Assembly (NCBI RefSeq): GCF_019649055.1
Contig: NW_026570426.1
Location: 1 to 64,000, forward strand
DNA: 64,000 nt
From: Paramacrobiotus metropolitanus
Lineage: Eukaryota > Tardigrada > Eutardigrada > Parachela > Macrobiotidae
Direction: 5' to 3'
Every line of letters begins with the position of its first letter. The first letter of the stretch is position 1. The notes beneath the pieces were generated by a model. That model was not told the origin of the DNA, did not search any database, and saw only the letters and a list, made by a program, of their open reading frames with translations. Made by a program: the position numbers and the translations under genes. This document shows, piece after piece, positions 1 through 24,530 of this stretch.

Positions 1-1
1 G

Positions 2-800: not shown

Positions 801-808
801 TTGAAGAA

Positions 809-1826: not shown

Positions 1827-1965
1827 ATCGTTGGAGCTCAAAGGTCTGATAGAGAGCAAGCATGCTGCACCAATACAGTCAAGTGTGGAATAAGAGTCTT
1901 GAAACTCGAAGATGGAAACTTACCGAAACGGATCGAAGCTTATACACATGAAGTCAAATTGGGAA

Positions 1966-2309: not shown

Positions 2310-2339
2310 TGCAGGAAAGGTCACCGAACTTCAACCAAG

Positions 2340-2620: not shown

Positions 2621-2816
2621 GAGAATGGTTGGGCCCAGGACAGAGCCAGGACTGATGAACAGCGACGAAAGAGCACTATTCTCGGAAATACGAGATCAAG
2701 CCATAAAGCAACTGGATGCAAGGAAAACGGAGCATGGTGCTCAACACACTTTCGAACCACGTGACAAAGCAAGAGGGCGGATGAAAGGTCGAGACACGCG
2801 CCTGCGCAAAGAGGTA

Positions 2817-2853
2817 GCAGAGAGTAGCCGTCTTACTTCGAACCACGCTCTGC
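2817..2853 (+). repeat. GCAGAG...CTCTGC hairpin repeat, TTCGAACC family
   Basis: Member of a dispersed family of about 37-49 nt: arms near GCAGAGCG and CGCTCTGC and a constant internal segment ACTTTCGAACCA just before the 3' arm. Here the arms are GCAGAG/CTCTGC. Other copies: 6765-6805, 8356-8396, 8631-8679, 8737-8777, 14427-14467, and a weak one at about 2727-2764. TTCGAACC resembles a tRNA T-loop, which may be coincidental. Confidence 0.65.
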
Positions 2854-4636
2854 AGATGAAGAAATCGAAGTCATCGAAATATCATCAGATAACAGCGTAA
2901 TCGAAATCGAAAAAGATGACGAATGGACAGATACCGATTCCGGAGAAGCGGATAAGCGAGTTATCGTCCGTCTGAACCGAGACAACGGATGCCGGAAGGA
3001 ACAATCGCGTCATTTCCCGCAAACCAAGAGAATGGACTGCGGAAGAGAGCAACCTCTTGCCATCACGATTGGCACGACAGCGATGACCTTTCGATAGCGC
3101 GACCTCAAGAAAGATGTGCAAAATGCATGCAAGAAATGACACAAGATGACCTTTCGGAATGGCCGAAATGCAATGCAGCAATTGCGTCATAAAGACAAGA
3201 AGAAATAGAGATCGTCGATTATGAGAACACTTCCCATGCCGGAACTGTCAAAAGCAACTTACCTTTGGCAATGTTATCGAGAATGGTTATCGGTAGTTAA
3301 GAACTACATCATCTCAGAAGTGGCTCCATCATTGGCAGCAAGAAGCGGACAACTTCATTCCCGAAAAGGCGGATAAAAGCGACCCGTGGTATACAAACCC
3401 GATTACAAAGCTCGACGAAGCGACGAGCAATGGAAGAGAACAAATAGGAGCAAGCGAGTTGACTTATTTTGGGAATTCAGAGTTAATTATCTATGGAAAG
3501 GTCAAGGACGAGCAATCATTTTCCCAATTGGACTCGGCACAGTAGTGTACGAATTATTTGACCTTTAAGGCCTGCCTCAAAAGGAAGCTACGAGAATGGA
3601 ATAAACAATGGGGCAAAATCCTCGAAGAAGTACCGATATTCAGGAGAAATTCAGAATTAAAGGTCACGCGAAAAGACGCGAACTTGGATTATTTGGCTAT
3701 CCGAGAAAAAGAAGGTGACCTTTGCACCAGATCCAGATGGGTGGAGTATCCGAAGAGGCGGAGATACTTGGTGCATGTATGAGACGGTACCGAACAATGA
3801 CTGGACTACAGAAGAACTGATGGCAAATTGCGTCTTTATCGGCGATAAGAGACCGAAAGGTCATGGCACAAGCGCTGAAAAAAAACGCACGAAGAAAAGA
3901 ACAAAGATAACGGCACAAGCGCCGAAGAAACCAAAGAAAAGAACAAGAGGTCAGCACAAGTGCTGCTCAAGAAAACAGCACAGGCGCCGAAGAAGAGGAA
4001 CCAACGCACGGCGTATGAGTTGGCTCAGATGATCAAGGAACTGAACCAGGCGTTTGGGATAAGGAAAACGGAATCAGTAACAGAGGCAAAAGGCTCAAAT
4101 GTCGCCGCAGAGAAAGCAGCGTCGTTAGTGGCTTCACTACAAAGGTCACTCGGTAACGGTGAGGAAGGCCACCAACCGAGAAGAACGAAAGGTCACTAAA
4201 CGCGATGCTGGAAGAGGAGCCAGAAAGGTCAGTTCGAAAGTTGACGAAAGGTCACCTGAAACTGGCGAGGAAGGACCGCCAGTTGGAAAGCAAAAGGTCA
4301 CAGAATACCGCTCAAGCAGATGATAGCTCGGAAGACGATGAAAGGGATAGGTCACGAGCAAGGATTCGTGCAACACGAACAAATCCGAGGATAGCAGCAC
4401 GAAACGGACGAAAGTCAAGAAACGGACAAACCTCTGCCCGAAAACGAAAAGTGAAAAACTTAGCGCTTCAAGGATGAAAGCGATGACCTTTCAACAGAAA
4501 GTGAAGACGAAGGCGTCGATGAGCGACCAATCGAGAAAGAAGCAAAGGTCAAGAGCTTGAAGCTAACCACAGCAGCGAATCCGACTCGGAATTCTCGAGC
4601 ACGAGCGATAACTCGACCACTTCTGAAGATTCTGGA

Positions 4637-5953
4637 GTGAGTGACCTTTCAGATCAAGAAGATCTGCTGGACCTCGACGAAGACGATGAAAAGAACGAAC
4701 AACAAGAGAAAGAGATCATTGTTCGAAGAATTAAAGTGCAGAAAGCAAGAATCCCAGAAGGAGCGATCAAGGTTTACAGCGACCAACGAGTTAAGCTGAG
4801 ACCAAACCTTGGCACACGCGTAAAGGTCAAGATGGGCGTTCATGTGCCACGGAATCAGAAGCTGATGTATACAGCAATTCCTCAAAAGGATAATGAAGTC
4901 CAACCGAGAACGGGAGTCACGGACCATAACGGCACTCGATTCGAAATTATTATCGAAAACCGAAGCAAAAGCCGAAAGACCGTAAGGAAGGGCCAATTTC
5001 TCGGTTACGTAGAACATTACGAACACCTAGAGAATGTAAAGGTCAACTCGGCTACCGTCGTGAAAAACATACTTGAAGATCCTGAAGTGGACGCAAAGAC
5101 GAAAGAAGAATTGAATGACATCATTGAAAGATTAAAGTTGGGACCAGACCTAACTGAAGAACAGAAAAATGACGTGCGAAATGCATTTTGGGAGTTTTGG
5201 AAAGTTCTCCCCACGTCAAAGAAACCGTACGGCGATGTCAAAGGGGTAACGCACACTATTGACACAGCCGATGCCAAACCGGTTAAATGCAATCCAGCAA
5301 GAACAAGTTGGAAAGGTCGTGAATTCATCACAAAGCACATCGAAGAGATGCTACAGCAAGATGTCATTGAACCATCCGATGCGGAATGGAGTTTTCCGGT
5401 CGTACTCGCCGCAAAGAAGAATGGCGACGGAACTATGGGAACAAGATTCTGCGTCAATTACATTTTGCTGAACAAGCTGACGAAAAAGAACAACTATCCA
5501 CTGCCGAACCCAGATGAACTGCTTGACGCATGCGCGGGAAATAAATATTACGGCAAGATGGACTTGCAAAGTGGCTTCTGGCAGATCCCAATGGATCCAG
5601 CCTCGAAAGATAAGACGACTTTCGTCACGCAGGACGGAATGTTCCGTTTCAAAAGAATGCCTTTTGGAGTCTGCAATGGACCTGCGACCTTTCAACTCTG
5701 TATGGATAAAGTCTTGTCGAACGCAAAGAGAATGGGATGCGTTTTCGGCTACATTGATGACGTGATCTTCGCAGGGAAGACCTGGGAGATCTTCATGCAG
5801 AACTTAAGGAATGTCCTTCAAAGTCTGGTTGACGCAGGCTTCACAATTAAGCCGACGAAATGCGAATTTGGCATGCGCGAAATGGGATTCTTGGGGCATA
5901 TCCTAAGCGAGAATGGTATCAAAATGGATCCCGAAAAAAGTCATGGCAGTTAA
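4637..5953 (+). CDS. pol: Reverse transcriptase, Ty3/gypsy type
   Basis: Open frame of 438 codons; it is open upstream of the first possible (non-ATG) start, so this is an internal part of a polyprotein. Seen: an acidic leader (residues 1-40), an RT palm with FCVNYILLNKLT (motif A region), LQSGFWQIPM, TTFVTQDGMFRFKRMPFG, GPATFQ and the catalytic YIDDVIF, then LGHILSENGIKM. This matches the Ty3 group (RT followed by RNase H). The frame ends at 5953 after an A6 run (GAAAAAAG); skipping one A lets the thumb sequence VMAVNGQKKPTT continue. Function: copies element RNA into DNA inside virus-like particles. Confidence 0.9.
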   Translation: MSDLSDQEDLLDLDEDDEKNEQQEKEIIVRRIKVQKARIPEGAIKVYSDQRVKLRPNLGTRVKVKMGVHVPRNQKLMYTAIPQKDNEVQPRTGVTDHNGTRFEIIIENRSKSRKTVRKGQFLGYVEHYEHLENVKVNSATVVKNILEDPEVDAKTKEELNDIIERLKLGPDLTEEQKNDVRNAFWEFWKVLPTSKKPYGDVKGVTHTIDTADAKPVKCNPARTSWKGREFITKHIEEMLQQDVIEPSDAEWSFPVVLAAKKNGDGTMGTRFCVNYILLNKLTKKNNYPLPNPDELLDACAGNKYYGKMDLQSGFWQIPMDPASKDKTTFVTQDGMFRFKRMPFGVCNGPATFQLCMDKVLSNAKRMGCVFGYIDDVIFAGKTWEIFMQNLRNVLQSLVDAGFTIKPTKCEFGMREMGFLGHILSENGIKMDPEKSHGS

Positions 5954-6759
5954 CGGCCAAAAGAAACCGACAACTGAACGGCAGTTGAGGTCATTCCTCG
6001 GATTAGCGAACTATTACCGAAAGTTCATCCTTGGATACGCGCAAAAGACGGCGCATCTCTACGAATTGCTAAGACACGATAAGAACATCAAAAAGAGATT
6101 GGTCGGCAGTCCATGATCAAGAATTCAATGACCTTAAAGAAGCACTGTGCAAGGATCCAGTATTGAAGAAGTTCGATCCGACAAAGCCAACAGTGATCGA
6201 GTGTGACGCATCAAAGGAAGGGCTAGGTGCGATCTTGTCCCAAGATGGACATCCCATTGCATACGCAAGCCGCGTTTTGCATGGAGCGGAAAAGAATTAC
6301 GGAGTAACAGAATGGGAATGCCTGGCGGTAGTTTTCGCCGTCAGAAAGTTCAAGTCGTACATCGACTACTCCGAATTCACAGTGAGAACGGATCACAAAG
6401 CTTTGACGAACCTCTTAAGATCGGAGTCGAACAAATCATGTATGAATCCAAGATTGACAAGATGGGCATTGGCACTTCAAGGTCACCGATTCAAGATCGA
6501 ATACAAGCCGGGCAAATACTGCGACAACGCAGATGCCCTTTCAAGAGCGCCAATTGAAGGTCCTACTTGCAACGAAGAAGAGTATGATGAAATCCCAAAC
6601 TTCGAAGATTACAAGAACGAACTCAACAGAGAAGAACCTCCGATTGAAGTTTGGCAACTTTTCGTACAATTAGCCGAAGAAAGGGAAGAACGGCTGAAAG
6701 CCGACATGAGAAGGTTGTGTCGGAAGAAAAAGAAAGCGGAGACATGCGCTCGAGCATAA
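5941..6759 (+). pseudogene. pol: RT connection and RNase H domain, two frames
   Basis: RLRSFLGLANYYRKF-type connection is read from 5941 to a stop near 6116, then the frame changes and RNase H runs from about 6118 to 6759. Seen in RNase H: VIECDASKEGLGAILSQDG (catalytic D), the E of YGVTEWECLAVVFA, and the D of TDHKALTNLL and of DNADALSR. It removes the RNA strand during cDNA synthesis. The active-site acidic residues are all present; only the frame break around 6100-6117 (WSAVHDQEF begins in the new frame) damages it. Confidence 0.85.
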
Positions 6760-6764
6760 ATGAA

Positions 6765-6805
6765 GCAGAGCGTAGTCGTCGTCTTACTTTCGAACCCCGC
6801 TCTGC
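6765..6805 (+). repeat. GCAGAGCG...CGCTCTGC hairpin repeat
   Basis: Best copy of the family: perfect 8-bp arms GCAGAGCG and CGCTCTGC enclose the conserved ACTTTCGAACC segment. It lies across the end of the RNase H frame at 6759 and the start of the integrase region. Confidence 0.7.
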
Positions 6806-6883
6806 TACCAAGATAAAGGTCAACAGAGTGAGAAAAGAAGCTTCCGAACGAAAGATGGAAAGGTCACGAAATACGGTCAGAAA

Positions 6884-8102
6884 ATGGTAGACCAGAATGA
6901 CCTTCGCGAAGCAGAAATTCTCTCGAATACATTCGGAAGAGTGTCCCATCAGATTGCTGAGATTCTCAAAGAAAATCGAGAAAGGTCACAAGCCTCTTCC
7001 GAGATGCAAGGTCATCAAAGATTGGAACGAACTCAGCACGGCAGTAGTCCGCATCGTCAACCTCCAAGGAGACGAAGAAGAAGAAGATGATACGAATTTG
7101 CAGTTGCGGAATAAGCAGCTAAAAGATCCGCACTTGGCAATGATCATCGATGAATTGGAGCACCTGCAAGACGCAGACAAAAGGTCAAAGTTTGAGACGC
7201 ATTACCAGTTATGGAACGGCATACTGTATCGCGTCAAAGACCAGAAAGGAAGACTGGAAAGGACATATGTGGTACCGCTGCAAATGAGAAGGGCTATCAT
7301 CCATGCACTGCATGATGAAAAAGCAGCAGGTCACCTCGGCTTTGAAAAGACGCTGACAGCGATCCGGCTCAGATATTACTGGGACCGTATGAGTACGGAT
7401 GTCAAGAATTACATCCTCGCATGCCAAGGATGCCAGTTTATAAAGACGCCGAGAAAGTGTCCACCGGGAAAGCTCCAAGAGATCAAAGTCGGTCATCCAT
7501 TCTTCAGAGTCTACGCGGATCTGAAAGGACCTACTTCCAACAAATTATATCGCATATATTAGAAACATGCTGCAAAGGAATTCGCAAAATCTTTGTGAAG
7601 CACGTAATTCTGGTGCACGGGCGCCACATATTCTCCATACGGATCGCGGAAGGCATTTCACCGCAGAAGTGAAAAGTCACAACGTGTTCAAAATCAAACA
7701 ACACCATCACCTGAAGGTCAAGGACAGGTTGAAAGACAGATGCAGACCATCAGTGATGGATTGTCGCAATACCTGAAAGCGGGAAATGAAAGGAAGTTCA
7801 ACAAGTATCTTCCCTACGTCATATCGGCAATGAACCGTGCAGTACATGCAACGACGGGGTACTCAGCGTACTACATGCTTCACGGGAGAGAAATGACCAT
7901 GCCAGAAGACGTAGTGACGAAGACGAACGTTCCTGACGACTACGGTGCACCAGACAGATGGGTCGAAACCATGAAAAGGAACTTGACCTTTTCAGAAGAA
8001 GTGGCGAAGTGCAACATCAAAGATGCTTACGAAAAAGCACGCGGAAATCTACAACAAGAAGTCAGAGCCGCAATTCAAAGTCGGAGACCGAGTCTTAATT
8101 AG
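6884..8102 (+). pseudogene. pol: Integrase core, split over three frames
   Basis: Frame 1 (6897-7562) holds an HHCC zinc finger (HALHDEKAAGH ... CQGCQ) and the first catalytic Asp (VYADLKGP). Frame 2 (7567-7776) holds HTDRGRHFTAE with the second Asp. The third frame (to 8102) begins with GQVERQMQTISDGL, carrying the catalytic Glu, and continues with YLPYVISAMNRAVHATTGYS, typical of Ty3 integrases. All D-D-E residues can be seen but not in one frame. Integrase inserts the cDNA in the genome. Confidence 0.8.
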
Positions 8103-9129
8103 ACTCCCGAAAGATACAAAGCAAGGAAAGAAGGAAAACCAATCCGACTTCAAGAATAAATATGACAAAGTGTGGAAGATTCTCAGTTTTCCGAGACCGA
8201 ACGAAGTCGAGGTCATCGAGCAAGATGCGGTGAAAGAACCGGACCTACGAGTCGTTTCGGTGGATCGTCTGAAACCGTGGCATCCACCGTTACCGGTTCA
8301 GAAAGGTCAAGCTGAAAGGGCAGCTTGGGAGATAATTGAGAAAGGTCAAGATGAAGCAGAGCGTAGTCGTCAGCATACTTCCGAACCACGCTCTGTACCT
8401 GATTTGGCAGAAGAGCCAGAAGAGGCAGAAGAGCCAGAAGAGGCAGAAGAGCCAAAAGAGGCAGAAGAGCCAAAAGAGGCGGAAGAGCCAGTTAAGAAAA
8501 AGAGAGGACGACAGAAGAAAGAGATTAAAGACTTTGAGACGCCAGTCACGATGAAGCTTAATCAAGAAGCGGGGAACTTGACCACGATTGAGCAAAATGA
8601 AAGGTCACACCGAAATGAGGATAAAGAAAGCACAGAGCATGGATCTCAAGTGGCGCCTACTTTCGAACCACGCTCCGCTACTAACATTAGAGACGACCTT
8701 TCAAGAGCGAAAATGGTTGGGCCTGCTCGCAGAGTAGCAGAGCGTAAACCTCAAGACACTTTCGAACCATATTCTGCTACCAGCGCCAAAGATGACCTCT
8801 CAAGAGCGGAACAAATAAAAGCCGTCAAAGAAAAAGCCGACCAACTTGGCCAACGGATCGCGAACGAAATTGAGAAGCGAAAGGTCAAGAAAACGAAGAA
8901 AACTCCGAAGCCGACTCCAGAACAGATTCTGAGAGGAGAAGTCCAAGACGAAGACGAAGCCGACAAAGCATTACTTGATCGGATAACTAAAGGACGAAAA
9001 CGAATAAACCCGAAAATCAGGCTTATAGGAGTTTATGATATTAAGACTGGAAGTTGGGACGGCGTAAAGGTCATCAGAAATAAACCTGCTAATCGGAGTC
9101 ATTTTCGTTGTCGTAGTAGGTTTGTTTAA
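8023..9129 (+). CDS. Integrase C-terminal domain fused to a charged repeat tail
   Basis: Residues about 15-90 (FKVGDRVLIRLPKD ... VVSVDRLKPW) form the SH3-like C-terminal DNA-binding domain of Ty3 integrases, so this ORF continues pol after a +1 frame change near an A-run at 8035-8045. After residue 90 it becomes low-complexity: EEPEEA/KEA hexapeptides (8409-8490), KKKRGRQKK, two TFEPRSAT...DDLSRA modules encoded by the hairpin repeats, and a lysine-rich coiled stretch. It ends in a stop at 9127-9129. The tail has no recognisable domain; it may be a linker to the downstream polyprotein. Confidence 0.7.
   Translation: MLTKKHAEIYNKKSEPQFKVGDRVLIRLPKDTKQGKKENQSDFKNKYDKVWKILSFPRPNEVEVIEQDAVKEPDLRVVSVDRLKPWHPPLPVQKGQAERAAWEIIEKGQDEAERSRQHTSEPRSVPDLAEEPEEAEEPEEAEEPKEAEEPKEAEEPVKKKRGRQKKEIKDFETPVTMKLNQEAGNLTTIEQNERSHRNEDKESTEHGSQVAPTFEPRSATNIRDDLSRAKMVGPARRVAERKPQDTFEPYSATSAKDDLSRAEQIKAVKEKADQLGQRIANEIEKRKVKKTKKTPKPTPEQILRGEVQDEDEADKALLDRITKGRKRINPKIRLIGVYDIKTGSWDGVKVIRNKPANRSHFRCRSRFV
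8356..8396 (+). repeat. GCAGAGCG hairpin repeat inside an ORF
   Basis: Same family; arms GCAGAGCG/CGCTCTGT (end pair is a G-U wobble), core ACTTCCGAACCA. In the local reading frame it encodes AERSRQHTSEPRS, close to the peptides encoded by the copies at 6765, 8631 and 8737. Confidence 0.65.
8409..8490 (+). repeat. 18-bp tandem repeat encoding EEPEEA/EEPKEA
   Basis: About four and a half copies of an 18-nt unit (GAAGAGCCAGAAGAGGCA and variants with AAAGAGG) in frame. Confidence 0.8.
8631..8679 (+). repeat. Hairpin repeat, diverged copy
   Basis: Longer copy (about 49 nt) with the core ACTTTCGAACCACGCTC conserved but weaker arms. Read in frame it gives TFEPRSAT. Confidence 0.5.
8737..8777 (+). 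repeat. Hairpin repeat
   Basis: Arms GCAGAG/TTCTGC (one G-U pair), core ACTTTCGAACCA. In frame it encodes TFEPYSAT followed by DDLSRA, the same pairing of peptides as after the 8631 copy. Confidence 0.55.
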
Positions 9130-9669
9130 CGATAAGCTGAAAAATGGAAGGTCAAGGCGGCAGAAGTTATTGGAATCCGGAACGCCGTCATCGATGAGCG
9201 GAACGATTCAGGACCCGGACTTATATGACGATTCAATGAATACGGAAGGAACGTACGAAGGGGGATACGACCCGTCTACTACGTATCAACAATCCGACGT
9301 GGGAATGAGTTCGAACACGTGGGGACTTACGGCACGCAGGTCGGGCCCCAAGGGCAAATGATGCCAAATCAGATGATGCCAAACCAGATGATGCCAAACC
9401 AGATGATGCCAAATCAGATGATGCCGAATCAAGGAATGATGGGACAGAACTTCCCATTCCAGCAATTCCCACAGATGTATGGCCAAAATATGCCCATGAT
9501 GAATCAAGGTCAACCGATGCAAGGTCAGTTCGGATATGGCGGAATGGCCCCATTTCCGAACCAGATGCAAGGATTCCCTAATCAGATGCAGGGATTTAAC
9601 CCTCAGCAAGGCCAAAGGCCAATTTCGGACACCAAAACCGTCAAAAGGTCATCGTTTCCCGGGAGATAG
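9122..9669 (+). CDS. Met/Gln/Asn-rich repeat protein (MMPNQ repeats), two frames
   Basis: An acidic, Tyr/Ser/Thr-rich leader (frame 2, 9122-9361) runs into a second frame (9319-9669) with five perfect MMPNQ pentapeptides (DNA 9358-9432), followed by GQ, PNQMQG and FPNQMQGF repeats. Low-complexity, Q/N/M/G-rich sequence of this kind is prion-like and often drives condensation, which would suit a particle or RNP scaffold; that role is inference. At 9640-9650 (AAAAGGTCATCG) the frame changes again and the downstream ORF reads KGHRFPGDRQNTPRRGG. I do not recognise the family. Confidence 0.5.
9358..9432 (+). repeat. 15-bp tandem repeat (MMPNQ x5)
   Basis: Five contiguous copies of ATGATGCCAAAYCAG, the last slightly diverged (ATGATGCCGAATCAA). 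Confidence 0.9.
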
Positions 9670-10768
9670 ACAGAACACACCGCGAAGGGGCGGTCAGCCG
9701 TTTACTCCGAGGGCGTCGACGAGTGGCCAGGGAACGAGAATGGAGATCCCATCACTTACACCAGTCCGAATCCACTCGCCAAGATCGACTGGAAGTATCC
9801 CGTGGGCAGTGTTAAATGCACCCAGATTCAACGACCCGATCACAGAAACGGATCCGCAGTACAACATTGTAATGGATCCAAAGGTCACCCTCACAGAGGA
9901 AGAAAAGAAGGCTGTGGCGGAGTTTAATGAAAAATGCCGCGAGTTCGTCCAGCTGCATAACGATATCAACGATAATCAAGATCAGTACAGGACAGCTCGA
10001 AGAACTCACAAGATAACCAGGGGAACCCACCTCCACATGAAACTGGATAAACATGAGGCGGAAGAGTTGAGAAAAGAAAGAGGTGTTGAAATCAGAACAC
10101 TGAAGAACAGTAATCCAGTGTTGCGCAACAGGGAATGGCCAAGCGCAGTAAAGACGATACTGATCTTCATGAACCTTATTCCCCGGAACCAAAAGAAGAA
10201 GAACAGGAGAGGAGTCAAAACTCCGGCCGAGGAAAGCCCCACTAAGGAAGAGCATACGGCCAAGCGAACGAGGAATGACCCGTTTCAGCCTCCGAGTGAC
10301 CCGTTGGTAACTCGAGAGAGAGAACTGTTGAGAGAAAGGGATAAACTCGACAGAGAAATCATGGAATTGAGGTCTCGTACGGCATCGGCAGTACAATCAG
10401 GATCATCGCGTACCAGCCCGGCGAGAGAAACTAAACCGAAACTGAAATATGAAAAAGGTCAACTCCCGGTGGAGGAAGGTCACACCGGTCAGACAGAAAA
10501 ACCTAAAGGTCATTCTGGCGCGAGCACGCGAAGGGGCGCAGCTCGAGAAACGAAATGTAGATCGCACACCAGAGTTTTCCGGCTTAAAGATAAAACGGAA
10601 GGAGTAGTCAGTGTATTTCTGGTCCATAGAGACACTGATCAACCAATTCCATCAATGGGGGAAGGAGCTGACCAAGCCGCATACCAGCTGATGTGCAGAG
10701 AAGCCAGCGATGCCGCAGAAGCAGCGATTGGTGAACTCATAAGTCAGAACGGAATAACCCGACCATGA
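9536..10768 (+). CDS. Unknown element protein, ending in the first copy of a triplicated domain
   Basis: 410 codons; the meaningful part probably begins near 9640, where it takes over from the MMPNQ frame. Middle: IPWAVLNAPRFNDP, then a helical charged region (LTEEEKKAVAEFNEKCREFV) and a basic stretch KKKNRRG. The C-terminal 70 residues (from CRSHTRVFRL) match, in pattern, two later segments of the next ORF. The stop is a tandem TGA TAG (10766-10771), after which the same frame stays open into the next ORF and completes the domain. No known family recognised. Confidence 0.55.
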   Translation: MAEWPHFRTRCKDSLIRCRDLTLSKAKGQFRTPKPSKGHRFPGDRQNTPRRGGQPFTPRASTSGQGTRMEIPSLTPVRIHSPRSTGSIPWAVLNAPRFNDPITETDPQYNIVMDPKVTLTEEEKKAVAEFNEKCREFVQLHNDINDNQDQYRTARRTHKITRGTHLHMKLDKHEAEELRKERGVEIRTLKNSNPVLRNREWPSAVKTILIFMNLIPRNQKKKNRRGVKTPAEESPTKEEHTAKRTRNDPFQPPSDPLVTRERELLRERDKLDREIMELRSRTASAVQSGSSRTSPARETKPKLKYEKGQLPVEEGHTGQTEKPKGHSGASTRRGAARETKCRSHTRVFRLKDKTEGVVSVFLVHRDTDQPIPSMGEGADQAAYQLMCREASDAAEAAIGELISQNGITRP

Positions 10769-11820
10769 TAGGGAGAATCCTTAGAGTTTGCTGCGAGATA
10801 TCGCGTTCAAAGAAAAGCAAACATCATGGTTACGATTGATGCGAAGGGCAAGATGGAGAGACAACTTTATAACCCGCAAGGCGAAAAGATTGATATGCTC
10901 TCGCATGGAGCATATCCGGCGTCAGGTGCGAAGGGGCACGAGGCGGAAGAAGCAGGAGAATGGGAAGAAGATGTAGAAGATGAAGAAAACCCGCCATACA
11001 GAGAGACGGTGTGCAGATGTCTAAAGGTCAACTATCACATGGCGGACGGAGATGAGGGATACGTCCACGGTTTTGTCATTGACCCGACGACCTATATGCC
11101 GATCCCGACAGCAGGAACGAATGCGACTCCTCAAGAAATTGAATGGCAAACACAGAAGTCGTATAGTGACCTTAATAAGATTCTCAATCTCCTGCCAGAG
11201 GACCAGCGGAATGACACTGCCGCGAATATACAGGCAGTGATGAGTATCCTCAGGCACAGGGCTGAAGAGGACCGAGCCTATTTGGTAATCTTTTGGAAAG
11301 ATGACGAAGGAAAGTGGAAATCACTCTTCGACTCCAAGGGCAAAGGGCTCTATTTTCCGGAAAACTTCCAATTTAATCCGACGGCGGAAGAGCACATTAA
11401 ATATTACTCTGGTGAACCGCCGGCCCAAGCCGAAGCCATGGAGACTCAAGAAGAAATCGATAGGGGATCACCGTGTCGACGCATCGACTATAAATTCATG
11501 AATCAAGAAGGAAGAGAAGGGATCCTCAGAATCGAAGTGGTCGATCCTCAGACGGGACAAATGGTGTCAAACGCAGGCTTCACTCCAGAAGAGGAAGAAG
11601 AGGAAACATCAAAACTCATGCAAGAGGTGGAGCAAGTACTGCAGGTCCTGCCGCAAGAGGAAGAGCGAGAAGAATTTGAAGCCATAACAGAAGTATTGGT
11701 TAACGTCATGATGCCAAGAGCACGCCAGGATGGGGCATACATGCGCTTGACCCTTTCCACGGAGAAGTGTACAAGCAACTTTACACTTCGAGAGGCGAGA
11801 CGCTGACTAGATTGTCGGGG
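10556..11820 (+). repeat. Three diverged tandem copies of an approximately 120-aa domain
   Basis: Copies at about 10556-10915, 11012-11370 and 11474-11820. Each begins CR, has a strand ending in an F/V-x-x-D region (FVIDPTTYMPIPTAG; VVDPQTGQMVSNAG; LVHRDTDQPIPSMG), then an acidic helix (LNKILNLLPEDQ; VEQVLQVLPQEEE) and a last strand pair (WKSLFDSKGK; YKQLYTSRGE; ERQLYNPQGE). Copy 1 crosses the TGA TAG; copy 3 crosses a frame change near 11757. This shows the three ORFs derive from one coding unit. Confidence 0.6.
10826..11806 (+). CDS. Unknown element protein with triplicated domain, copies 1 (end) to 3
   Basis: 326 codons from the first ATG after the tandem stop. It is in the same frame as the preceding ORF and its start (MVTIDAKGKMERQLYNPQGE) is the end of domain copy 1, so the ATG is probably not a true start. 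Copy 2 is complete (residues about 62-185) and copy 3 occupies residues about 215-310, its last strand read in the following frame (VYKQLYTSRGE). Acidic linkers separate copies. No membrane segment or catalytic motif is visible; a structural role is possible but unproven. Confidence 0.6.
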   Translation: MVTIDAKGKMERQLYNPQGEKIDMLSHGAYPASGAKGHEAEEAGEWEEDVEDEENPPYRETVCRCLKVNYHMADGDEGYVHGFVIDPTTYMPIPTAGTNATPQEIEWQTQKSYSDLNKILNLLPEDQRNDTAANIQAVMSILRHRAEEDRAYLVIFWKDDEGKWKSLFDSKGKGLYFPENFQFNPTAEEHIKYYSGEPPAQAEAMETQEEIDRGSPCRRIDYKFMNQEGREGILRIEVVDPQTGQMVSNAGFTPEEEEEETSKLMQEVEQVLQVLPQEEEREEFEAITEVLVNVMMPRARQDGAYMRLTLSTEKCTSNFTLREARR

Positions 11821-13704
11821 GCGAAAAAGGTCAAGAAACCGGCTGAGAAGGGTCAGCCTGAGCAAATTAAAGCTGAAGAGAAAGGTCATCAAGAGAAGAA
11901 AGAAACGAAGGGTCAAAGGACTAAGGACAGATCGCGAGAACGAGAGGTCAAGAAAGAAGAACAGTTGACTCCCGTAAGAAGCGCCGAACGGGTCAAGGCG
12001 ATAATTACAGGAGAAGTCTCACCGCATTCATGCGCTGACCCTAAATGCGAAAGATGCCGGAAGGAGGCAAAAGAAAAGAAGGAGGAAAAGGAAAAGAAAG
12101 CGGAAAAGGAGAAGAAAATGAAGCCACCAAAAAGTACGGCACGAGAAGGCAGCGCCGGAAATACGTTTGTCAAACAGCCTAAATTACTGGGGGTTATGAC
12201 AAAGAAAAGAGAGAAACCGGAGTCGGACTCTGAACCAGAACAGCTGTCTATCGATGCTAAAGCAAGTTCATCGCAAGCTGAAACCGAAGACGAGACGGAC
12301 AAAGGTCAATCACGCAAGGTGATGGAGGAAGCGATGACGATGCAGCCGGTCTATGCGTCGACGATGAAAGAACGCAAGGACAAGGCTGATAAAGAGAAGA
12401 AGAAAAGGGATACTTCGGTGGAGTCGGCGAAATCCGAAATTAGCATTGCATCATCAAAGTCATCGTCGAAACAGACAAAGAAAGGTCAGAAGGACACAAG
12501 AAAGTCTGACCCCAGTTTAGCAGACTATATGGATGCTCAGAAGAAACCAAAGGTGACTGCAAAGAACAGCCTCATCGGAAGGGTCGATGCAGCTGACATC
12601 CTGAACTGGAAACCTGTCGAAGGGGACAGCGAACTGGACTATACAGACGATGAATATGACGATCGCTTCTTTGTCTGCGAAATGAATGACGAAATAACGA
12701 TTGAAGAAATTGACGAAATCCTCATCGGAGCGACAGCAGATTGGGGGAAAGCGACAAGATCAGTTACGTCAAAGTTCAGGAAGGACGTGAAAAATTATTG
12801 CGCCGAGACCAATAAGAGACTGCCAGAGAGCAAGTATAACGCCGTCCTGGAATACGCAAGGAGCACGGGAAAAGTTCTCCAGAAACACCCGAAATACGGC
12901 AACAAAGCGAAGCTGTATATTACAGGAAACAATAACGAAAGGAAGTTGGCGACCGCGAACGCGGATATCCGAGAACGGATCGAACGCGCCATCATCGGAA
13001 TGTGCAGCCCGATGGGTACGACGAAACACCGTATGGCCCAGTTTATCAATGGAGTCTGGAGCAAAGAGAAGGGAAATGCTTCAGATATTGAAAGGTCACT
13101 CGGAAGACCATTGAAACAGATGGTCGAGGAAAAGAAGCTCCACACAACGAATCCCCATAAAGGCGTGACAATCAGATACAGCTCCATAAACGCTGTACCA
13201 GAAGAATTGAGAGAGTACAAGACAGAAGAAACAAGTGAAGATACCACCAAGATAGTGGACCCGAGACTCGATGCGGAAAGGCCCATTTTGAGTCAGATCA
13301 AGCTAGATAGCGGTCAACCAGCAACCTCATCGAAGAAAGCAAAAGAAGGACAAGAAGAAGAAGCGATGGTCGTCGAAGAAAAGGTCATTGAGGAAAAAGA
13401 GACAGAAACGGTAGAGAAGGGTATACCGACACTGCATGCACCAAAATCAGCTGAGGAGGCGATCGCCCTCGTGGGACCTCCGAAACCAATGTCAGTCCCG
13501 GAAGCACTAGCGGCAGTAAGAAGCCAAAGGGCAAGCGGTGGATCCAGCTCGGTAACAGATGTTCAGAAGATCCATCGAGCAACAACAACACTGACACCGC
13601 TGAGAGTTGCGCACGAAAAGGCGACGCAAGGCAAAGAAGACGCGAAAGGTCAAGCCGCTCAGGACACAACGAAAGGTCACCAAACTTCAGCTTCAGGGGA
13701 GTAA
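11767..13704 (+). CDS. Lysine/glutamate-rich element protein with a winged-helix-like domain
   Basis: 645 codons, the longest ORF in the window. Residues 1-20 finish domain copy 3. Residues about 20-290 are highly charged (KKE, KGQ, KGH), with a CADPKCERC cluster near residue 82 that could bind zinc. Residues about 320-480 are globular: a run ending ATANADIRERIERAIIGMC then helices and KKLHTTNPHKGVTIRYSS look like a winged helix with its wing. The C-terminal 150 residues are low-complexity. The stop is TAA within TAAGGTCAC, where the element-wide motif would read AAA (Lys-Gly-His). The frame is open beyond it into the next ORF. Probable nucleic-acid-binding structural protein; inference only. 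Confidence 0.6.
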   Translation: MYKQLYTSRGETLTRLSGAKKVKKPAEKGQPEQIKAEEKGHQEKKETKGQRTKDRSREREVKKEEQLTPVRSAERVKAIITGEVSPHSCADPKCERCRKEAKEKKEEKEKKAEKEKKMKPPKSTAREGSAGNTFVKQPKLLGVMTKKREKPESDSEPEQLSIDAKASSSQAETEDETDKGQSRKVMEEAMTMQPVYASTMKERKDKADKEKKKRDTSVESAKSEISIASSKSSSKQTKKGQKDTRKSDPSLADYMDAQKKPKVTAKNSLIGRVDAADILNWKPVEGDSELDYTDDEYDDRFFVCEMNDEITIEEIDEILIGATADWGKATRSVTSKFRKDVKNYCAETNKRLPESKYNAVLEYARSTGKVLQKHPKYGNKAKLYITGNNNERKLATANADIRERIERAIIGMCSPMGTTKHRMAQFINGVWSKEKGNASDIERSLGRPLKQMVEEKKLHTTNPHKGVTIRYSSINAVPEELREYKTEETSEDTTKIVDPRLDAERPILSQIKLDSGQPATSSKKAKEGQEEEAMVVEEKVIEEKETETVEKGIPTLHAPKSAEEAIALVGPPKPMSVPEALAAVRSQRASGGSSSVTDVQKIHRATTTLTPLRVAHEKATQGKEDAKGQAAQDTTKGHQTSASGE

Positions 13705-14355
13705 GGTCACCCGAGCTCGAGTCAAGGCAATCCGGCTCCGTCATCAGTACCGCAACCACCGAAAGAGGTGCCACAACCTTCACCAAAAGTAGAAAAAGAA
13801 CAACCTTTCGAATTATTGGAAGAGGATATCGTCGACGGCAAACCAAGTTATATGATTGGTGATGACCTTTCTGAAACCAACGTCCCGTGGATGATGATTT
13901 GCGCTGCGATTGGTGCAGTTCCGTCAAGAGAAATGGATAAGACGGAAATCGCTAAAGCAGTTAGCGACGCCGGAATCACCAGGACACAAGTCAATAAAAT
14001 CATGAAAAGGGCATACAAGGAAGGGAAAATCGGTGTGAAATACACAAATACGAATATGCCGATTCATTACATCCCTCCGGTTGAAGATCAACGAAAGCAG
14101 AGGCCGAAGCCAGGTCCCCAAGCGTGGAAAGATGCCCTGACCAAAGATGCTCTGCAGAATATCGGTGGAACCAATGGGGTTACGCAAGAAGATGTGTCCA
14201 ATTATATGGCGGTCCAATACGACTCTGGTCAGGAAAACATGAACGGAGATCGATTCAAAATCCAGAACGCACTGGATAGCCTGGTCAAAGACGGAACTCT
14301 CAGAACATGGAAGAGGAATGGAATCGACCGTTATGACTGGATCGCAAAGGCATAA
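13705..14355 (+). CDS. Two winged-helix domains (Z-alpha-like and linker-histone-like)
   Basis: Open frame in phase with the preceding ORF, from just after its TAA to 14355. A proline-rich linker leads to winged helix 1 (about 13867-14085): helix 1, REMDKTEIAKAVSDAG, recognition helix TRTQVNKIMKRAYKEGKI and a wing with MPIHYIPP. The helix-3 Asn and the KEGKI turn fit Z-alpha domains in spacing, but the key Tyr is Lys and the wing Trp is His. Winged helix 2 (about 14122-14350) has NGVTQEDVSNYM, DRFKIQNALDSLVKDGTL and a basic wing, closely resembling H15/linker-histone domains. A role in packing or recognising nucleic acid is likely; Z-form binding is speculative. Confidence 0.6.
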   Translation, partial: GHPSSSQGNPAPSSVPQPPKEVPQPSPKVEKEQPFELLEEDIVDGKPSYMIGDDLSETNVPWMMICAAIGAVPSREMDKTEIAKAVSDAGITRTQVNKIMKRAYKEGKIGVKYTNTNMPIHYIPPVEDQRKQRPKPGPQAWKDALTKDALQNIGGTNGVTQEDVSNYMAVQYDSGQENMNGDRFKIQNALDSLVKDGTLRTWKRNGIDRYDWIAKA

Positions 14356-14426
14356 AGAAAGAATAAGTGTGGGAGGAAGGTCCACCACACAAGATGAAGA
14401 AACAGAATCAGAAAAGACAGAAAGGA

Positions 14427-14467
14427 GCAGACCGTAGTTCTCAGATTACTTTCGAACCACACTCTGC
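14427..14467 (+). repeat. Hairpin repeat in an inter-ORF gap
   Basis: Arms GCAGA/TCTGC and the core ACTTTCGAACCAC. This copy lies outside any long ORF, so the family is kept in both coding and non-coding parts of the element. Confidence 0.55.
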
Positions 14468-14480
14468 AAGAAGAGTTGAA

Positions 14481-14647
14481 TTAGCGAATGGGCTAAAGTA
14501 CTTAGCGAATGGGCTAAGATGAGAAAGGTCACATAGACAGTTGAAAAGGGTTTAGTCAAAGAAGGATGGCAAAGGTCATCGTGAAAGAGCAGCGAAAAGT
14601 CTCAGCTCAGCACTGAATAGCCTAGTTATCATAGGCGTAAACTAGGC
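14481..14647 (+). repeat. Inter-ORF hairpins
   Basis: TTAGCGAATGGGCTAA occurs twice in tandem (14481-14516), each a small hairpin TTAGC/GCTAA. At 14620-14647 GCCTAGTT and AACTAGGC form perfect 8-bp arms. The stretch 14356-14700 has no ORF. Confidence 0.6.
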
Positions 14648-14714
14648 GTTGAGAAGGGTTAACGTAAAGGCCATAGCATTATATTGTTTGAGATTGCAGG
14701 TTGAAAAGGTCAAA

Positions 14715-15302
14715 ATGGCTGAACGGAGCCAACCTAACCAGAATGCGGCGAAAAAGGGCCAAAGACCAGCAATAAAGAAGGTGACCGGAGATCCTCTGAC
14801 GAATTACAATGAGGACTGCCCAGATTGCAAGCGGAATAACATCCTGTCGAACGAACGATTCCCATGCTGGCTTTGTGTGGTCGCAGTACCAAACCAAGCA
14901 GTGGTAGTACCAGAAGAGGCGAGAAGGGGTAACCTCGATGTGTTCCGACATTTGGTTACGGGAGACACATGGAAGAAACTGTCACCGGAAGATCGGATGA
15001 TTCTGGAAGATAAATACCGAATGTGGGTCGGGCGCAGACCGGGATGGGATATCACCCTGGAACCGCCGAGAACGCCGGAAGCAGACGCTTTCAGAAAGAA
15101 GTTTGAAGAAGATACAATGAGAATGGTACAAGAAAAGCGCGAAGCAGAGAGAAAGCGCTTAGAAGAGAAGGAGAAAGCTGCGGCAGAGAAGGGTTTAGCC
15201 GAAGCAGCTAAAAGGTCACGCACCTATCCCAATGGCAATACTGAAGAAACAAGACGAGGGAGAAGCAGCGGTGATCAGACAGTCACTGATACAGCAAATT
15301 GA
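14715..15302 (+). CDS. CxxC zinc-ribbon-like element protein
   Basis: The frame opens at 14649 with a non-ATG start; I prefer ATG 14715 (MAERSQPNQ). Two CxxC pairs (CPDC at residues 35-38, CWLC at 51-54) are spaced like a zinc ribbon, a common nucleic-acid or protein-binding fold. A Trp/Arg-rich core follows (WKKLSPEDRMILEDKY, MWVGRRPGWD) and then a long charged helix (about residues 125-175). From 15199 a second frame opens; at 15210-15219 (AAAAGGTCACG) reading can pass into it as KGHAPIPMAILKK. Family unknown; could be a nucleocapsid-type protein placed after pol. Confidence 0.5.
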   Translation: MAERSQPNQNAAKKGQRPAIKKVTGDPLTNYNEDCPDCKRNNILSNERFPCWLCVVAVPNQAVVVPEEARRGNLDVFRHLVTGDTWKKLSPEDRMILEDKYRMWVGRRPGWDITLEPPRTPEADAFRKKFEEDTMRMVQEKREAERKRLEEKEKAAAEKGLAEAAKRSRTYPNGNTEETRRGRSSGDQTVTDTAN

Positions 15303-16308
15303 CACCATCCTGCAAGATCCACTCGCCGTGTCGAAAGAAGAATACAAGATATTCTTGGACGAAAAGGTCAGCCTAACGAAAGGAAATAGGCCGTCTCAGG
15401 TCATCAAGATTGCGATTGAGGAACGAATCGACAGGATGCGAAACTTCCGAAAACGAGAGAAAGATGTCGTCGAGGCCCTCCGAAACTTCAAGAAAGAGGA
15501 GTTTAGACGCCCAAAATCACCTCAGAGAGATAATCGATCTCGCGGCTATGAAAGGTCATCAGACCGCTCCCGAGAAAGGTCGTGGGAAAAGAGTCGCGAT
15601 GACAGATACAGCGGATATGCAAGAGATACGCGTACGTCGGAACAAAAGAGAAGAGACGAAGAACGTATCCGACGAGAAAGAGAGCAGCGGGAGAAGCGCC
15701 GCAGAGAAGAAGCAGAAGAAAAGCGATTGACGGAAGAATACAGGAAGATCAATGAGACCTGTAACAGGCAGCAGGAGAAGGAACGGGCTGCTACGGATGT
15801 GCAAAACCGTGAAAGGGATTCACAGAGTCGAGAAGGACGAAGTGAAGCCTCGAGCAAATCTTCGAAGAGCCCGTACGATCCGCAGTGGGTACAAGACAAT
15901 TTGAACATGGAGGATTACGAGTTCGGAGACAAAGCATACAACAGTAGCAAAAGGTCATCCAGCTCGGAAAGTCACCGCACACCCAAGAGCCCACGCAGAT
16001 TGAGGTCAATGGTCCATTCCGTTTGTTCAACGTTTAAACCAGTCGAAAAACAACCGGAAAAGCAAGCGGACGAGGTCATGGAATGCAGCCCGTCATCCTC
16101 GAATGTCATTGAAGTTCACGGAGACGAGGATATGCGACCGTCAAGACGAAACATCATTTTCGATCTTGAGCATCAGCTTACAAGCGCGGAGATGGCGAGT
16201 AATGCACCGCCAGAATCAGATTCAGAGAAGGGCGACCAGAAAGGTCAAGCAAAGGTCACCGCTCCGAGGAGACATTCCTCCAAACCATCGAGCTGGTATA
16301 TGAAATGA
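15232..16308 (+). CDS. RS/RE-rich basic element protein
   Basis: 358 codons, probably entered by frame change from the preceding ORF near 15211. Residues 1-85 are helical (SLIQQIDTILQDP; EERIDRMRNFRKRE). Residues 85-210 are arginine-serine and arginine-glutamate repeats (SSDRSRERSWEKSRDD; KRRDEERIRRERE), as in RNA-binding splicing-type proteins. The rest is Ser/Pro-rich. Stop TGA at 16306-16308 overlaps an ATG as ATGA. Likely RNA binding; unknown family. Confidence 0.5.
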   Translation: MAILKKQDEGEAAVIRQSLIQQIDTILQDPLAVSKEEYKIFLDEKVSLTKGNRPSQVIKIAIEERIDRMRNFRKREKDVVEALRNFKKEEFRRPKSPQRDNRSRGYERSSDRSRERSWEKSRDDRYSGYARDTRTSEQKRRDEERIRREREQREKRRREEAEEKRLTEEYRKINETCNRQQEKERAATDVQNRERDSQSREGRSEASSKSSKSPYDPQWVQDNLNMEDYEFGDKAYNSSKRSSSSESHRTPKSPRRLRSMVHSVCSTFKPVEKQPEKQADEVMECSPSSSNVIEVHGDEDMRPSRRNIIFDLEHQLTSAEMASNAPPESDSEKGDQKGQAKVTAPRRHSSKPSSWYMK

Positions 16309-17417
16309 ATGATATCATGGAGCAGACGAACGAGATTTGCCGTTCGGTGGGCATCGCGCCGGATAATAAAGAAGAATTCGACAAAGTTTATTGGCTTCTC
16401 ATGAACTTGCGCCAGGTCATCAACGACTCGGGATACGCGAAGGAATACGAGTATGGCCAATGGGAAGACCTCATCATTACGCAAGAATCGGCGAATCTTC
16501 ATTATTTCCCAACGAGAGAATGTGGCCTTGTCAGTTTGATCGACCTGAGTCTCTTGGAAACACCATTGGACACTCCCGATCCAACAGGAATGACGCAGTT
16601 CCAATACAGAGACATCAAGGAAAGACGACTCCACGTAGCACAATTTGTGCTGCGACATGTGAACCCGGCGTTGAGACTCCTCGCAGGAAGGGCTGCGTTA
16701 GGATTGTTGGTCAAACCAGATTCTCCGCCCGATCATCGCGCCACGATTCAGAAGATTTTTGCAGCAAGGCTCGGCCATTACGAATCGCATCACCAGCTGC
16801 GAAAGAGCGCCCAAAGAGGTATAGAGATACCGCCAGCACTGACCGCGCAAGTTATAAAGCTGGGAATGCCTGTTAAGAACTTTAACTCCTCGGAAACGGC
16901 CAGGAGGCAGCTGAAAGACGTCCAGAGAGCAATGAATTTCGATGAAAGTCTGAGACGTCAGGCGAAGATGCACGCACACCGATGTGCAGAGCGAATCAGG
17001 ATTACGATGGGAACAAGATTCATCCAGCCATCCGACTTCGTCTATGATTTCATCCAAGAAATCAGCGTAAATAGAGGCAGCTACCGTCCAGAGCTCGCGA
17101 GACAGCCGCAGGAAAATGAAATGAAACGAAGAGGACGAAGAAACCAACAGCTGCATTTGGACTATGTCGAATTGTGCAAGAGGTCACGGGATAATCCATA
17201 CGATGAAGGATTAAAAGCGCGAATGGTTGACGCTCGAGATCATCTGATCCGTATTCAGCGCAGACGTGACCGAAATCGGCACAGTGGTGCTAGCAGCCGG
17301 AGCGAAGGAGACGAGCTGCAAGAGAGGGGAATGGAACCTCGAGATCGAACGTCTGATCAGAATGAAAAACAAAGACGTTTCGATCGGAACCGCGACGATG
17401 GTTCAAATGATCAGTGA
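16305..17417 (+). CDS. Helical basic element protein, unknown family
   Basis: 370 codons from an ATG that overlaps the preceding stop (ATGA). The frame is open upstream to about 16251 (KGHRSEETFLQTIELVYEMND) and that extension looks natural, so the junction is more likely a -1 frame change at GCAAAGGTCA than reinitiation. Predominantly helical with conserved-looking aromatic and arginine residues (FVLRHVNPALRLLAGRAALG; HRCAERIRITMGTRF) and an arginine-rich C-terminal tail. No domain recognised. It is the last ORF of the element. Confidence 0.55.
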   Translation: MNDIMEQTNEICRSVGIAPDNKEEFDKVYWLLMNLRQVINDSGYAKEYEYGQWEDLIITQESANLHYFPTRECGLVSLIDLSLLETPLDTPDPTGMTQFQYRDIKERRLHVAQFVLRHVNPALRLLAGRAALGLLVKPDSPPDHRATIQKIFAARLGHYESHHQLRKSAQRGIEIPPALTAQVIKLGMPVKNFNSSETARRQLKDVQRAMNFDESLRRQAKMHAHRCAERIRITMGTRFIQPSDFVYDFIQEISVNRGSYRPELARQPQENEMKRRGRRNQQLHLDYVELCKRSRDNPYDEGLKARMVDARDHLIRIQRRRDRNRHSGASSRSEGDELQERGMEPRDRTSDQNEKQRRFDRNRDDGSNDQ

Positions 17418-17419
17418 TG

Positions 17420-17860
17420 ACCTTTAGGGCATCGCTGATGTGCTAGTTACGGCCATCAGTCGGCAGCACGAGAATGGTAACGAAGGTACAGTATTAGGGC
17501 GAAGGAGACATAACGTATTGAATTGTCATACCGTTTGTGTATTGTTGTTTGCAGAACTTTGTTGCAGGGGATCAATGTGATCTTTAATATGGGGAGTTAC
17601 GGAGGTCATCCGGCCCTCGAAGCAGGAAGAGTAACGGCGTTAACCGGCCTTCCTCATTACATTTAAACGTCACTTCTAGAGTGTAGTTGCGGCCTACCTA
17701 GTCGGCACACTCTTAAGGAATGTCAGAAGCCGCAAGGGTGAAAAAGAGAAAGAGTTCAAGAAAATAGGGGTAAAAACTTTCAGATGTTGAGGTTACGGCG
17801 ACAACCGGCCTCAGAAGAGAGGAGTTACGGCGTTAACCGGCCCTCGAACCTGGTAAGGAA
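17420..17860 (+). repeat. 3' array of six GTTACGG...CCGGC hairpins with different outer stems
   Basis: Copies at about 17438-17470, 17594-17621, 17625-17656, 17679-17711, 17786-17812 and 17819-17848. Each has an inner CGG/CCG (or CGG/GTCGG) pairing with a short loop, wrapped by an outer stem that differs between copies but stays complementary: GTGCT/AGCAC, GAG/CTC, GGAAG/CTTCC, GAGTGT/ACACTC, TGAGG/CCTCA, GAG/CTC. No ORF overlaps the array. It is placed like a 3' UTR. Confidence 0.75.
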
Positions 17861-18420
17861 AAGAAGAAAGGTGCGCGTCAATTGGCACTAAAAGAAAGGA
17901 AAGGATGTGCGACAGAAGAAAATGGTTGAAAAAGATGGATGACCTTTACAAGGGAGGCAAGCAGAATTGCTTGAAAGCCAAAAATCGGCTAAGTTCCTCC
18001 ATGACCTTTAATATGGAACTTACGAAGGGAAAATGGATGACCTTTTGGGATCGTCACTGCCCAATTGAATCGCACATCAGAAAAAGAAAGGATGACCTTT
18101 GAGAACTTCACTGCTCAAGAGAGTCATCGAGAAAAAAGAGAATGACCTTACCAGGGAGGAAGCATTAAGCTTGTCTTTCAAGACGTCCCTCCATGTCCAA
18201 GAGGAAGAATCTCATTTGACAGAAGTCGTACTTTGATACGCAATTATTCCAAAGATGAAGAAGCAGTATTCAGAAGTCGTACTTGATACGCACCTATTCC
18301 TAAAGCGGATCTCTCATTGTGATGAAAAAGATTGCTCAATAGAGCGGAATGGACCAAAGTGGATTACGGTTGACAGGACCCAGTGACCTTTACGAGTCGG
18401 AGGATCCTAGTCGTTTTGAT
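17861..18420 (+). other. 3' tail of the giant element with reversed AAAGGTCA motifs and a direct repeat
   Basis: Contains at least five TGACCTTT (the reverse of AAAGGTCA) and a near-identical 30-bp direct repeat CAGAAGTCGTACTTTGATAC... at about 18220 and 18270. There is a short ORF (17905-18102) without recognisable features. Composition shifts to host-like AT-rich DNA after about 18,420. No LTR is seen. Confidence 0.5.
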
Positions 18421-18982
18421 AATGAATTCTGTTGATATTTTTTTACTGTTTTTACTTTTGTTTCGAGATCTCTTTATTCACACATGTAATTGGAATTTGT
18501 GATGTTAAAAGGAGATAAAATCTCGATGTTCTTTTATGCGCACAGACGAGCCGTCAAGAATCCCAAGGAATTGGACGTGGATTTTGCTTCGACGGAGCTC
18601 AGCCTCCCTCCCAGAGGCATGTGAGCGCAGGCGTACATGCGTACACCCTCGCTTTGGCAGTCTGTTGTGTTTTGTTGCACGCCCGCCTACGTGCGGCGAA
18701 AGCATGGTGTTCTGCGCGCACCCGCATCATGTGGCGGCTACGTGCGCATTTTTCACGCTTGCTGCAGTCAGCAATGCGGAGTTGTCCACGAGGAAATTCT
18801 ATCGAATTTAGTCTGGTCTATAAAGTTCTAGCAATCACGCCGTTTCTCGCTTTCCATAGCGTAGGCGCTGTATAGCATTGCCAGATCTGTTTGGCAGGCA
18901 GAATTCCGTCAATTCTGTTCCTGCGCGTGAACCTTCATCAGGTCCACGCTCATAGGTGGAAGACACCGAGTTTTGTCCCTTA
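18421..18982. other. Spacer
   Basis: Poly-T-rich then GC-mixed sequence. Short ORFs on both strands (18505-18811) show no recognisable domain. I see no supported feature. Confidence 0.4.
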
Positions 18983-24480: not shown

Positions 24481-24530
24481 ATTAAAAGTTCCATGCCTTG
24501 TTTGTCTAAAGTGGGATTTTAACGGCCAAG

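Follow-up and report, generated by a model that had tools for sequence, protein, structure and literature searches.

How does a retroelement keep a genome of 25 kb transcribed and exported intact? The question is raised by the beginning of contig NW_026570426.1 of the tardigrade Paramacrobiotus metropolitanus (assembly GCF_019649055.1, a genome of 169.8 Mb; the contig is C206 in our numbering), whose first 64 kb are the stretch of DNA analysed here and are called the window. The start of the window belongs to one copy of a giant Ty3-type long terminal repeat (LTR) retroelement, of which the 3' three quarters are present, and the genome has at least about 100 copies of this element, whole or partial, with lengths of up to about 25 kb. 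Two long open reading frames (ORFs), F and G, follow Pol in this element, and the octamer AAAGGTCA, a feature that an earlier note on the same DNA had missed, is dispersed along its body; together, F, G and the octamer make the question testable. The family, its two ORFs and the motif appear to be new, and no description of the element or of an octamer-studded retroelement was found among the matches listed in the open-licence PMC literature. Our verdict is that this is a real new family, a variant of the giant Ty3 elements, and that an unusual DNA motif under selection runs along its body. The earlier note had suggested a largely undescribed class of giant retroelement; one giant Ty3-type element, ended by LTRs, is indeed what we find, while the word class is too strong, as Burro and Ogre are known (PMC6431247).

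A giant Ty3-type element at the start of the window

The first 18 kb are rich in A on the plus strand, with an AT skew, taken per 2 kb, of 0.21 to 0.41, and long open frames extend along this strand from the integrase up to 17417. The nine kilobases of coding sequence that the earlier note placed after the integrase are real, although not wholly unrecognised, as one block matches the Pfam family Linker_histone. The window copy is broken: the supposed eight or more coding blocks come down to the Pol tail and pieces of F and G, which are single frames in two other copies, C97 and C103. Nor does the element end at 17417, since a 3' non-coding region and an LTR lie beyond. Its layout is as follows.

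1..6, plus strand: closing six bases of the -1 Gag/Pro frameshift site, a GGGAAAC slippery heptamer (in L061rc the heptamer is at 6089 in the right phase, and position 6090 aligns with window base 1)
1..9129, plus strand: Pro-Pol region, frames broken (open frames, Pfam, partly by eye)
about 1969-2309, plus strand: protease (by eye)
4523-5953, plus strand: reverse transcriptase (RT; Pfam match)
6073-6759, plus strand: RNase H (Pfam match)
6891-7562, plus strand: zinc-binding domain of the integrase (Pfam match, Integrase_H2C2)
about 7608-8102, plus strand: remainder of the integrase (by eye)
to 9129, plus strand: Pol tail, lying within the blocks counted earlier as new
9144..14355 (start approximate), plus strand: ORF F, frames broken, with a Met/Gln-rich N-terminus, tandem repeats of about 150 amino acids and a linker-histone-like C-terminus (C97 and C103 frames, repeats, Pfam)
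14715..17417, plus strand: ORF G, frames broken, with two CxxC pairs, a middle rich in arginine-serine (RS) and a conserved C-terminal region at 16305-17414 (C97 and C103 frames, genomic matches, substitution rates)
17418..18619, plus strand: 3' non-coding region with seven TGACCTT sites in a single orientation (17418, 17940, 18002, 18038, 18093, 18143, 18384)
18620..18954, plus strand: 3' LTR of 335 bp, TGTGAGCG...CGCTCATA (LTR DNA search, alignment)
1..18400, both strands: dispersed AAAGGTCA octamers, 77 in number, or 93 when AAGGTCA is counted (a dinucleotide model expects 1.0 and 2.9)

Because the contig starts within the Gag/Pro overlap, Gag, the leader and the 5' LTR lie beyond it and have to be read from other copies. 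A DNA search with window positions 18430-18990 listed 40 matches (the best 40 of 140 candidates scored). In the 3'-end copies the match starts near query base 1, and a second set matches only about 191-525, as 5' LTRs would. Paired same-strand LTRs, the mark of the LTR-bounded full-length copies that the earlier note had proposed to look for, occur among these matches on four contigs, spanning 25.0 kb (C414), 21.9 kb (C3), 18.8 kb (C9) and 18.6 kb (C143); the interior was read in C414. There the LTR pair has no substitution and one gap in 335 aligned bases, thus the insertion looks young, and the target duplication, read in this one copy, is CTAG. The primer-site-like sequence TGGTAGCAAGAG stands immediately 3' of the C414 LTR, and C103, whose LTR was not delimited, has TGGTAGCAGAGC; both may fit initiator tRNA-Met. 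No polypurine tract was recognised by eye upstream of the 3' LTR.

The Gag frames of C103 (894 and 374 amino acids) contain, by eye, a long coiled coil, a capsid-like stretch, a CCHC knuckle and RGG/GGQ repeats, to none of which Pfam gave a match; the knuckle, CX2CX4HX4C, is seen by eye in the C414 Gag as well and is likewise not reported by Pfam, and NCBIfam matches are confined to the C103 Gag and are all under cut-off. Pro follows in the -1 frame after Gag, with GGGAAAC in the correct phase in C414 and C103, the two copies read. Pfam on C414 finds RVT_1, RT_RNaseH, Integrase_H2C2 and rve in that order, with an aspartyl protease in the preceding frame; in the window it gives no match for the protease piece 1989-2306 or the integrase piece 7608-8099. 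Paired LTRs, a short target duplication and an RT-RNase H-integrase order with the protease upstream, all found in C414, are traits expected of a Ty3/gypsy element. The closest relatives of the C414 Pol among 120 listed matches are four P. metropolitanus proteins (82, 80, 47 and 43% identity), followed by a pseudoscorpion protein at 37%, and the best RT matches are Pol proteins carrying the same Pfam domains.

F and G belong to the element

F is one ATG-to-stop frame in the two copies read, of 1750 amino acids in C97 and 1630 in C103, and G, downstream of it, is one such frame of 912 and 913 amino acids, respectively. The start of F lies 23 (C97) and 62 (C103) nucleotides from the aligned end of the Pol tail, and in C414 the F frame opens 14 nucleotides past the close of the Pol frame. 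An F match is present upstream of G, on the same strand and within 6 kb, at 96 of 107 merged G loci (median gap 2035 bp) and is absent at 11; the locus lists hold the best 111 of 481 candidates scored for G and the best 150 of 191 for F. A separate downstream mobile element, the finding that by the earlier note's own account would have undone its reading, is rejected, as far as tested, on this adjacency of Pol and F, the order of F before G and the LTR after G.

The coding of G is not due to chance, because its C-terminus has at least 113 genomic matches (29 at 62-100% identity, 84 at 39-47%) and a ratio of nonsynonymous to synonymous substitution rates (dN/dS) of 0.04-0.07 in eight of eleven copy pairs, the other three being saturated and dropped. 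The C-terminus of G is thus under purifying selection; selection on the octamer may depress dS slightly in these ratios. For F, the single estimable pair gives dN 0.23 and dS 2.0, and the F proteins of different subfamilies are only 30% identical.

The C97 F contains three tandem repeats of about 150 amino acids (blastp of repeat against repeat, run without composition correction on a seven-sequence database, gives E of 1e-8 to 1e-11), and the C103 F contains two and lacks the third in the alignment. Block 13705-14352 was the sole one of nine scanned to pass a Pfam cut-off (Linker_histone, 25.7 bits vs 22.4), and two more stretches of F may, on our reading, be winged-helix-like. G has two CxxC pairs, 17-20 RS/SR dipeptides and the conserved C-terminus. 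Of the repeat, zinc, RS and winged-helix proteins named in the earlier note, then, the repeats, the cysteine pairs and the RS dipeptides are present, and the winged-helix likeness holds in part; that they build a particle or a chromatin-like coat, as it suggested, would be conjecture. Hydropathy shows no membrane segment, the highest 19-residue Kyte-Doolittle value being 1.47 over 16 sequences and 1.27 over the nine window blocks (no signal-peptide program was run); an envelope identity for F or G is rejected on this ground, as in the earlier note.

In a protein search of 5.8 billion sequences, nine match G and one matches F, all from P. metropolitanus; distant relatives may be missed, because scoring covered only the candidates sharing most words. 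A PDB sequence search with the C97 F and G gave no match. The NCBI gene models P0001-P0009 are the element's G ORFs, P0002 being a fusion of G with F, and some are labelled trichohyalin-like, caldesmon-like or RNA-binding protein 25-like; such misleading public names matter for studies of this stress-tolerance model.

An octamer under selection along the element

AAAGGTCA is the top 8-mer of window positions 1-18400 (77 vs 1.0 expected) and also of both C414 stretches tested. In the 42% subfamily, AAGGTCA ranks first or second among seven-mers at each of the five 3' loci read, with 7 to 15 per 4 kb. Most element sites are in coding DNA. A protein-level cause is ruled out by synonymous shuffling: in seven ORF stretches, 108 seven-mers are observed against a summed mean of 15.5, and none of 500 shuffles reaches the observed number in any stretch. 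In six of these stretches the coding sites are spread over all three frames. Site retention exceeds the seven-mer background in all five copy pairs, in both directions each, for example 9 of 27 vs 1.6% at 55% identity and 13 of 14 vs 16% at 75%; the least clear cases are 11 of 20 vs 24% and 23 of 31 vs 45%.

The element has 4.1 sites per kb, against 0.27 for the flank and 0 for the LTR, and the leaders of C103 and C414 have densities of 7.5 and 5.1 per kb, respectively. All ten sites of the C103 leader are TGACCTT, in one orientation, and five of them are spaced 29-30 bp apart. In C414, six of seven leader sites (six of six at 1259-1633) and seven of seven 3'-region sites are TGACCTT, while the coding sites are mostly AAGGTCA; in the 3' non-coding region, several columns of TGACCTT sites are kept in both subfamilies. 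Genome-wide, counting element and host together, octamer pairs 16-45 bp apart number 4034 vs 32 for the reversed control.

The octamer is not a general trait of integrase-bearing elements in this genome, as eight other integrase loci show no comparable excess: each has 0 or 1 octamer-type sites, and their 26 kb hold three octamers (rank 104 of 840). In the flank, 18991-64000, it is first of 840 same-composition octamers, with 12 vs a mean of 1.5. A host-wide enrichment initially suggested by rank 1 in a random sample was traced to one tandem repeat in locus L079 and was not used.

Two further sequences were met in the course of these counts. TACGAGTA is over-represented in the same flank too, with 16 vs 0.8 expected. 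The L079 repeat (L079:5369-5609, contig C4 near 2.005 Mb) has a unit of about 81 bp carrying AAAGGTCA and TGACCTTT in both orientations, with no blastn similarity to the element pieces.

A host nuclear receptor as the probable reader of the octamer

NR4A receptors bind as monomers to a site known as the NBRE, AAAGGTCA (PMC10419244), and the element's octamer is identical to it in every base. The host has 63 zf-C4 matches; among the 32 regions read, one exon encoding a DNA-binding domain (L083) has NR4A proteins as its best four PDB matches, NGFI-B first, and the host also encodes FTZ-F1 and ERR. The octamer is common to subfamilies whose F proteins are only 30% identical, and this favours a conserved host receptor over F as the binder.

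We propose the following. Across the coding and non-coding DNA of the provirus, AAAGGTCA would recruit one of the host's nuclear receptors, of the kind whose monomers bind AAGGTCA; NR4A/HR38 would fit best, and ERR or FTZ-F1 is possible. The bound receptor would keep the provirus accessible and transcribed over 25 kb, and the array in the 5' leader may act like the array of Su(Hw) sites in Drosophila gypsy. F, with its tandem repeats and, in one subfamily, a linker-histone-like domain, would be a nuclear accessory protein that binds DNA or chromatin, and G, with its cysteine pairs and RS-rich middle, might be a nuclear handler of the very long unspliced genomic RNA, as CERV is for Cer1. We infer the link from receptor to provirus and the functions of F and G; taken as a whole, the proposal of a host receptor on the octamers of a giant Ty3 provirus, with F and G in the nucleus, is one towards which we lean, with modest confidence. 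More tentatively, the octamer could be an address word for the whole body of the element, by which a nuclear DNA-binding protein, either the NR4A-type receptor or F, tags the whole provirus and protects it against silencing; if so, an animal retroelement would have an anti-silencing system that is sequence-specific and extends over its body.

Several observations weigh against a receptor-bound, selected motif and nuclear F and G. A receptor site every ~240 bp inside coding DNA is unusual for an enhancer, and NR4A receptors can also silence, since NR4A2 with CoREST is reported to silence HIV (PMC9295971). Single octamers number 42,562 genome-wide vs 15,522 for the reversed control, elements included; because this is only 2.7 times the control, heavy host use of the octamer is not proven. 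Two random 7-kb host stretches have 0 sites (L078) and 8 sites (L079), the latter all in one tandem repeat. Shared ancestry accounts for part of the motif retention, which is moreover incomplete (18 of 43, 9 of 43), and the distant copy L037 has only 7 sites vs 13-15 in its four kin. As to F and G, the Linker_histone match is slightly under cut-off in the C97 F (21.7 bits) and absent from the C103 F by Pfam, and the two AlphaFold models, one for the C-terminus of G and one for the winged-helix-like block, are too poor to use (mean confidence scores, pLDDT, of 42 and 43).

Alternative explanations of the motif and the ORFs

The element may instead recognise itself: one of its own proteins, most likely F, would bind AAAGGTCA and remove or prevent silencing, or coat the DNA, in the manner of VANC. 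The linker-histone-like domain in F of the window subfamily and the contrast in site density between element and flank are consistent with this, and there is a precedent in VANC21, whose transposon has itself accumulated the 9-base motif to which the protein binds (PMC5735166). However, VANC motifs shift between related families, whereas here the same octamer is shared by subfamilies whose F proteins have diverged so far; the VANC21 signal is stronger in non-coding regions, according to the same source, whereas the element sites are mostly coding; and the octamer is identical to a host receptor site already known and ranks first among octamers of its composition in the flank. We therefore regard self-recognition as somewhat unlikely, and keep the host receptor as the preferred reader.

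The octamer might instead have a role at the level of RNA, where sense AAAGGUCA sites would base-pair with UGACCUUU sites in the antisense orientation, or the sites would be bound by an RNA protein, so that the long genome is packaged or exported. The opposite orientations of the leader and 3' sites (TGACCTT) and of most coding sites (AAGGTCA) in C414, together with the uniform leader of C103, would suit such a role. Yet the shuffle means reveal that composition favours the plus orientation in coding DNA, and the leader array is explicable by tandem duplication; pairing alone would allow joint drift, and both subfamilies keep the same word; and the window has no Rfam match. This role appears improbable to us.

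The octamer excess could also be passive, a result of repeat expansion or mutation bias with no binder at all. Part of the C103 leader array is spaced near-regularly, at 29-30 bp, as if from tandem duplication, and some octamers stand opposite a gap or indel in the other copy. Against this, the coding sites fall in all three frames of six of the seven ORF stretches, many octamers differ by at least two substitutions from the distant copy, retention is above the seven-mer background, and the eight other integrase loci lack a comparable excess. There is, in our judgement, little chance that the excess arose in this way.

That F and G are host genes captured by the retroelement, or a second mobile element inserted alongside, is very improbable: the host-like names given by NCBI to some of the ORFs and the 11 of 107 G loci lacking an upstream F match speak for it, but the adjacency of Pol and F in the copies examined, the F-G order at the other 96 loci, the LTR downstream of G and the lack of relatives from other species in the protein searches made (best candidates scored) speak against it. 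The adjacency and the gene order tell against a second element, and a capture of genes long ago, in an ancestor, is conceivable.

Comparison with known systems

Giant elements with added coding capacity have precedents, among them the planarian Burro. This is a gypsy-type LTR element whose internal region measures up to 25 kb and contains much additional coding sequence (PMC6431247), and it differs in that its extra domains are mainly in a giant ORF1, whereas those of the tardigrade element are in two ORFs after Pol, between LTRs of just 335 bp. Burro also has an env-like region between gag and pol, found by HHpred (PMC6431247). The Burro domains MATH, BIR, ankyrin and BCL2 had no Pfam match in the tardigrade ORFs scanned. 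The plant Ogre elements likewise measure 16-25 kb and have one or two extra ORFs of unknown function; their size, in contrast, comes mostly from LTRs of 1.9-6.5 kb (PMC6431247), whereas in the tardigrade element it is the internal region that is large.

For the motif, two comparisons are useful. The VANDAL transposons of Arabidopsis are not counted among retroelements. They resemble the tardigrade element in that a short motif has accumulated in the transposon's own DNA (PMC5735166), and the concentration of a motif in the element, typical of VANC systems, is found here as well. The difference is that binding has been demonstrated for VANC and is hypothetical for F and G, and that the tardigrade motif is a host receptor site which also fills coding DNA. 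In Drosophila gypsy, twelve Su(Hw) repeats form a cluster of binding sites within the 5' untranslated region (PMC2493044), compared with ten sites in the C103 leader and seven in that of C414; the Su(Hw) sites are recognised by a zinc-finger protein, whereas the tardigrade octamer is of the nuclear-receptor type and continues through the coding region.

For the ORFs, the C. elegans LTR retroelement Cer1 encodes CERV, a nuclear protein needed for export of its genomic RNA and made from a spliced mRNA (PMC10309623), and by this description it may serve as a functional model for G. The transmembrane sORF2 used by Drosophila elements of the MDG1 group (PMC11952523) is unlike F and G by hydropathy, and an env ORF with a membrane segment, as in errantivirus-like elements, was not seen by hydropathy in the 16 sequences.

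Other features of the window

Downstream of the element, the minus strand contains an RT ORF at 22723-24384 (RVT_1, E 5e-29), which we guess to be probably a non-LTR element, and at 28655-30190 a Gag-like ORF with weak PNMA and zinc-knuckle matches. Also on the minus strand are a serpin ORF at 32029-33300 (E 1e-41) and a class I chitinase (GH19) ORF at 51930-52742. Two inverted-repeat sets, at 19733-20831 and 24521-26936, have arms about 1 kb and 2.3 kb apart and are possibly small DNA transposons.

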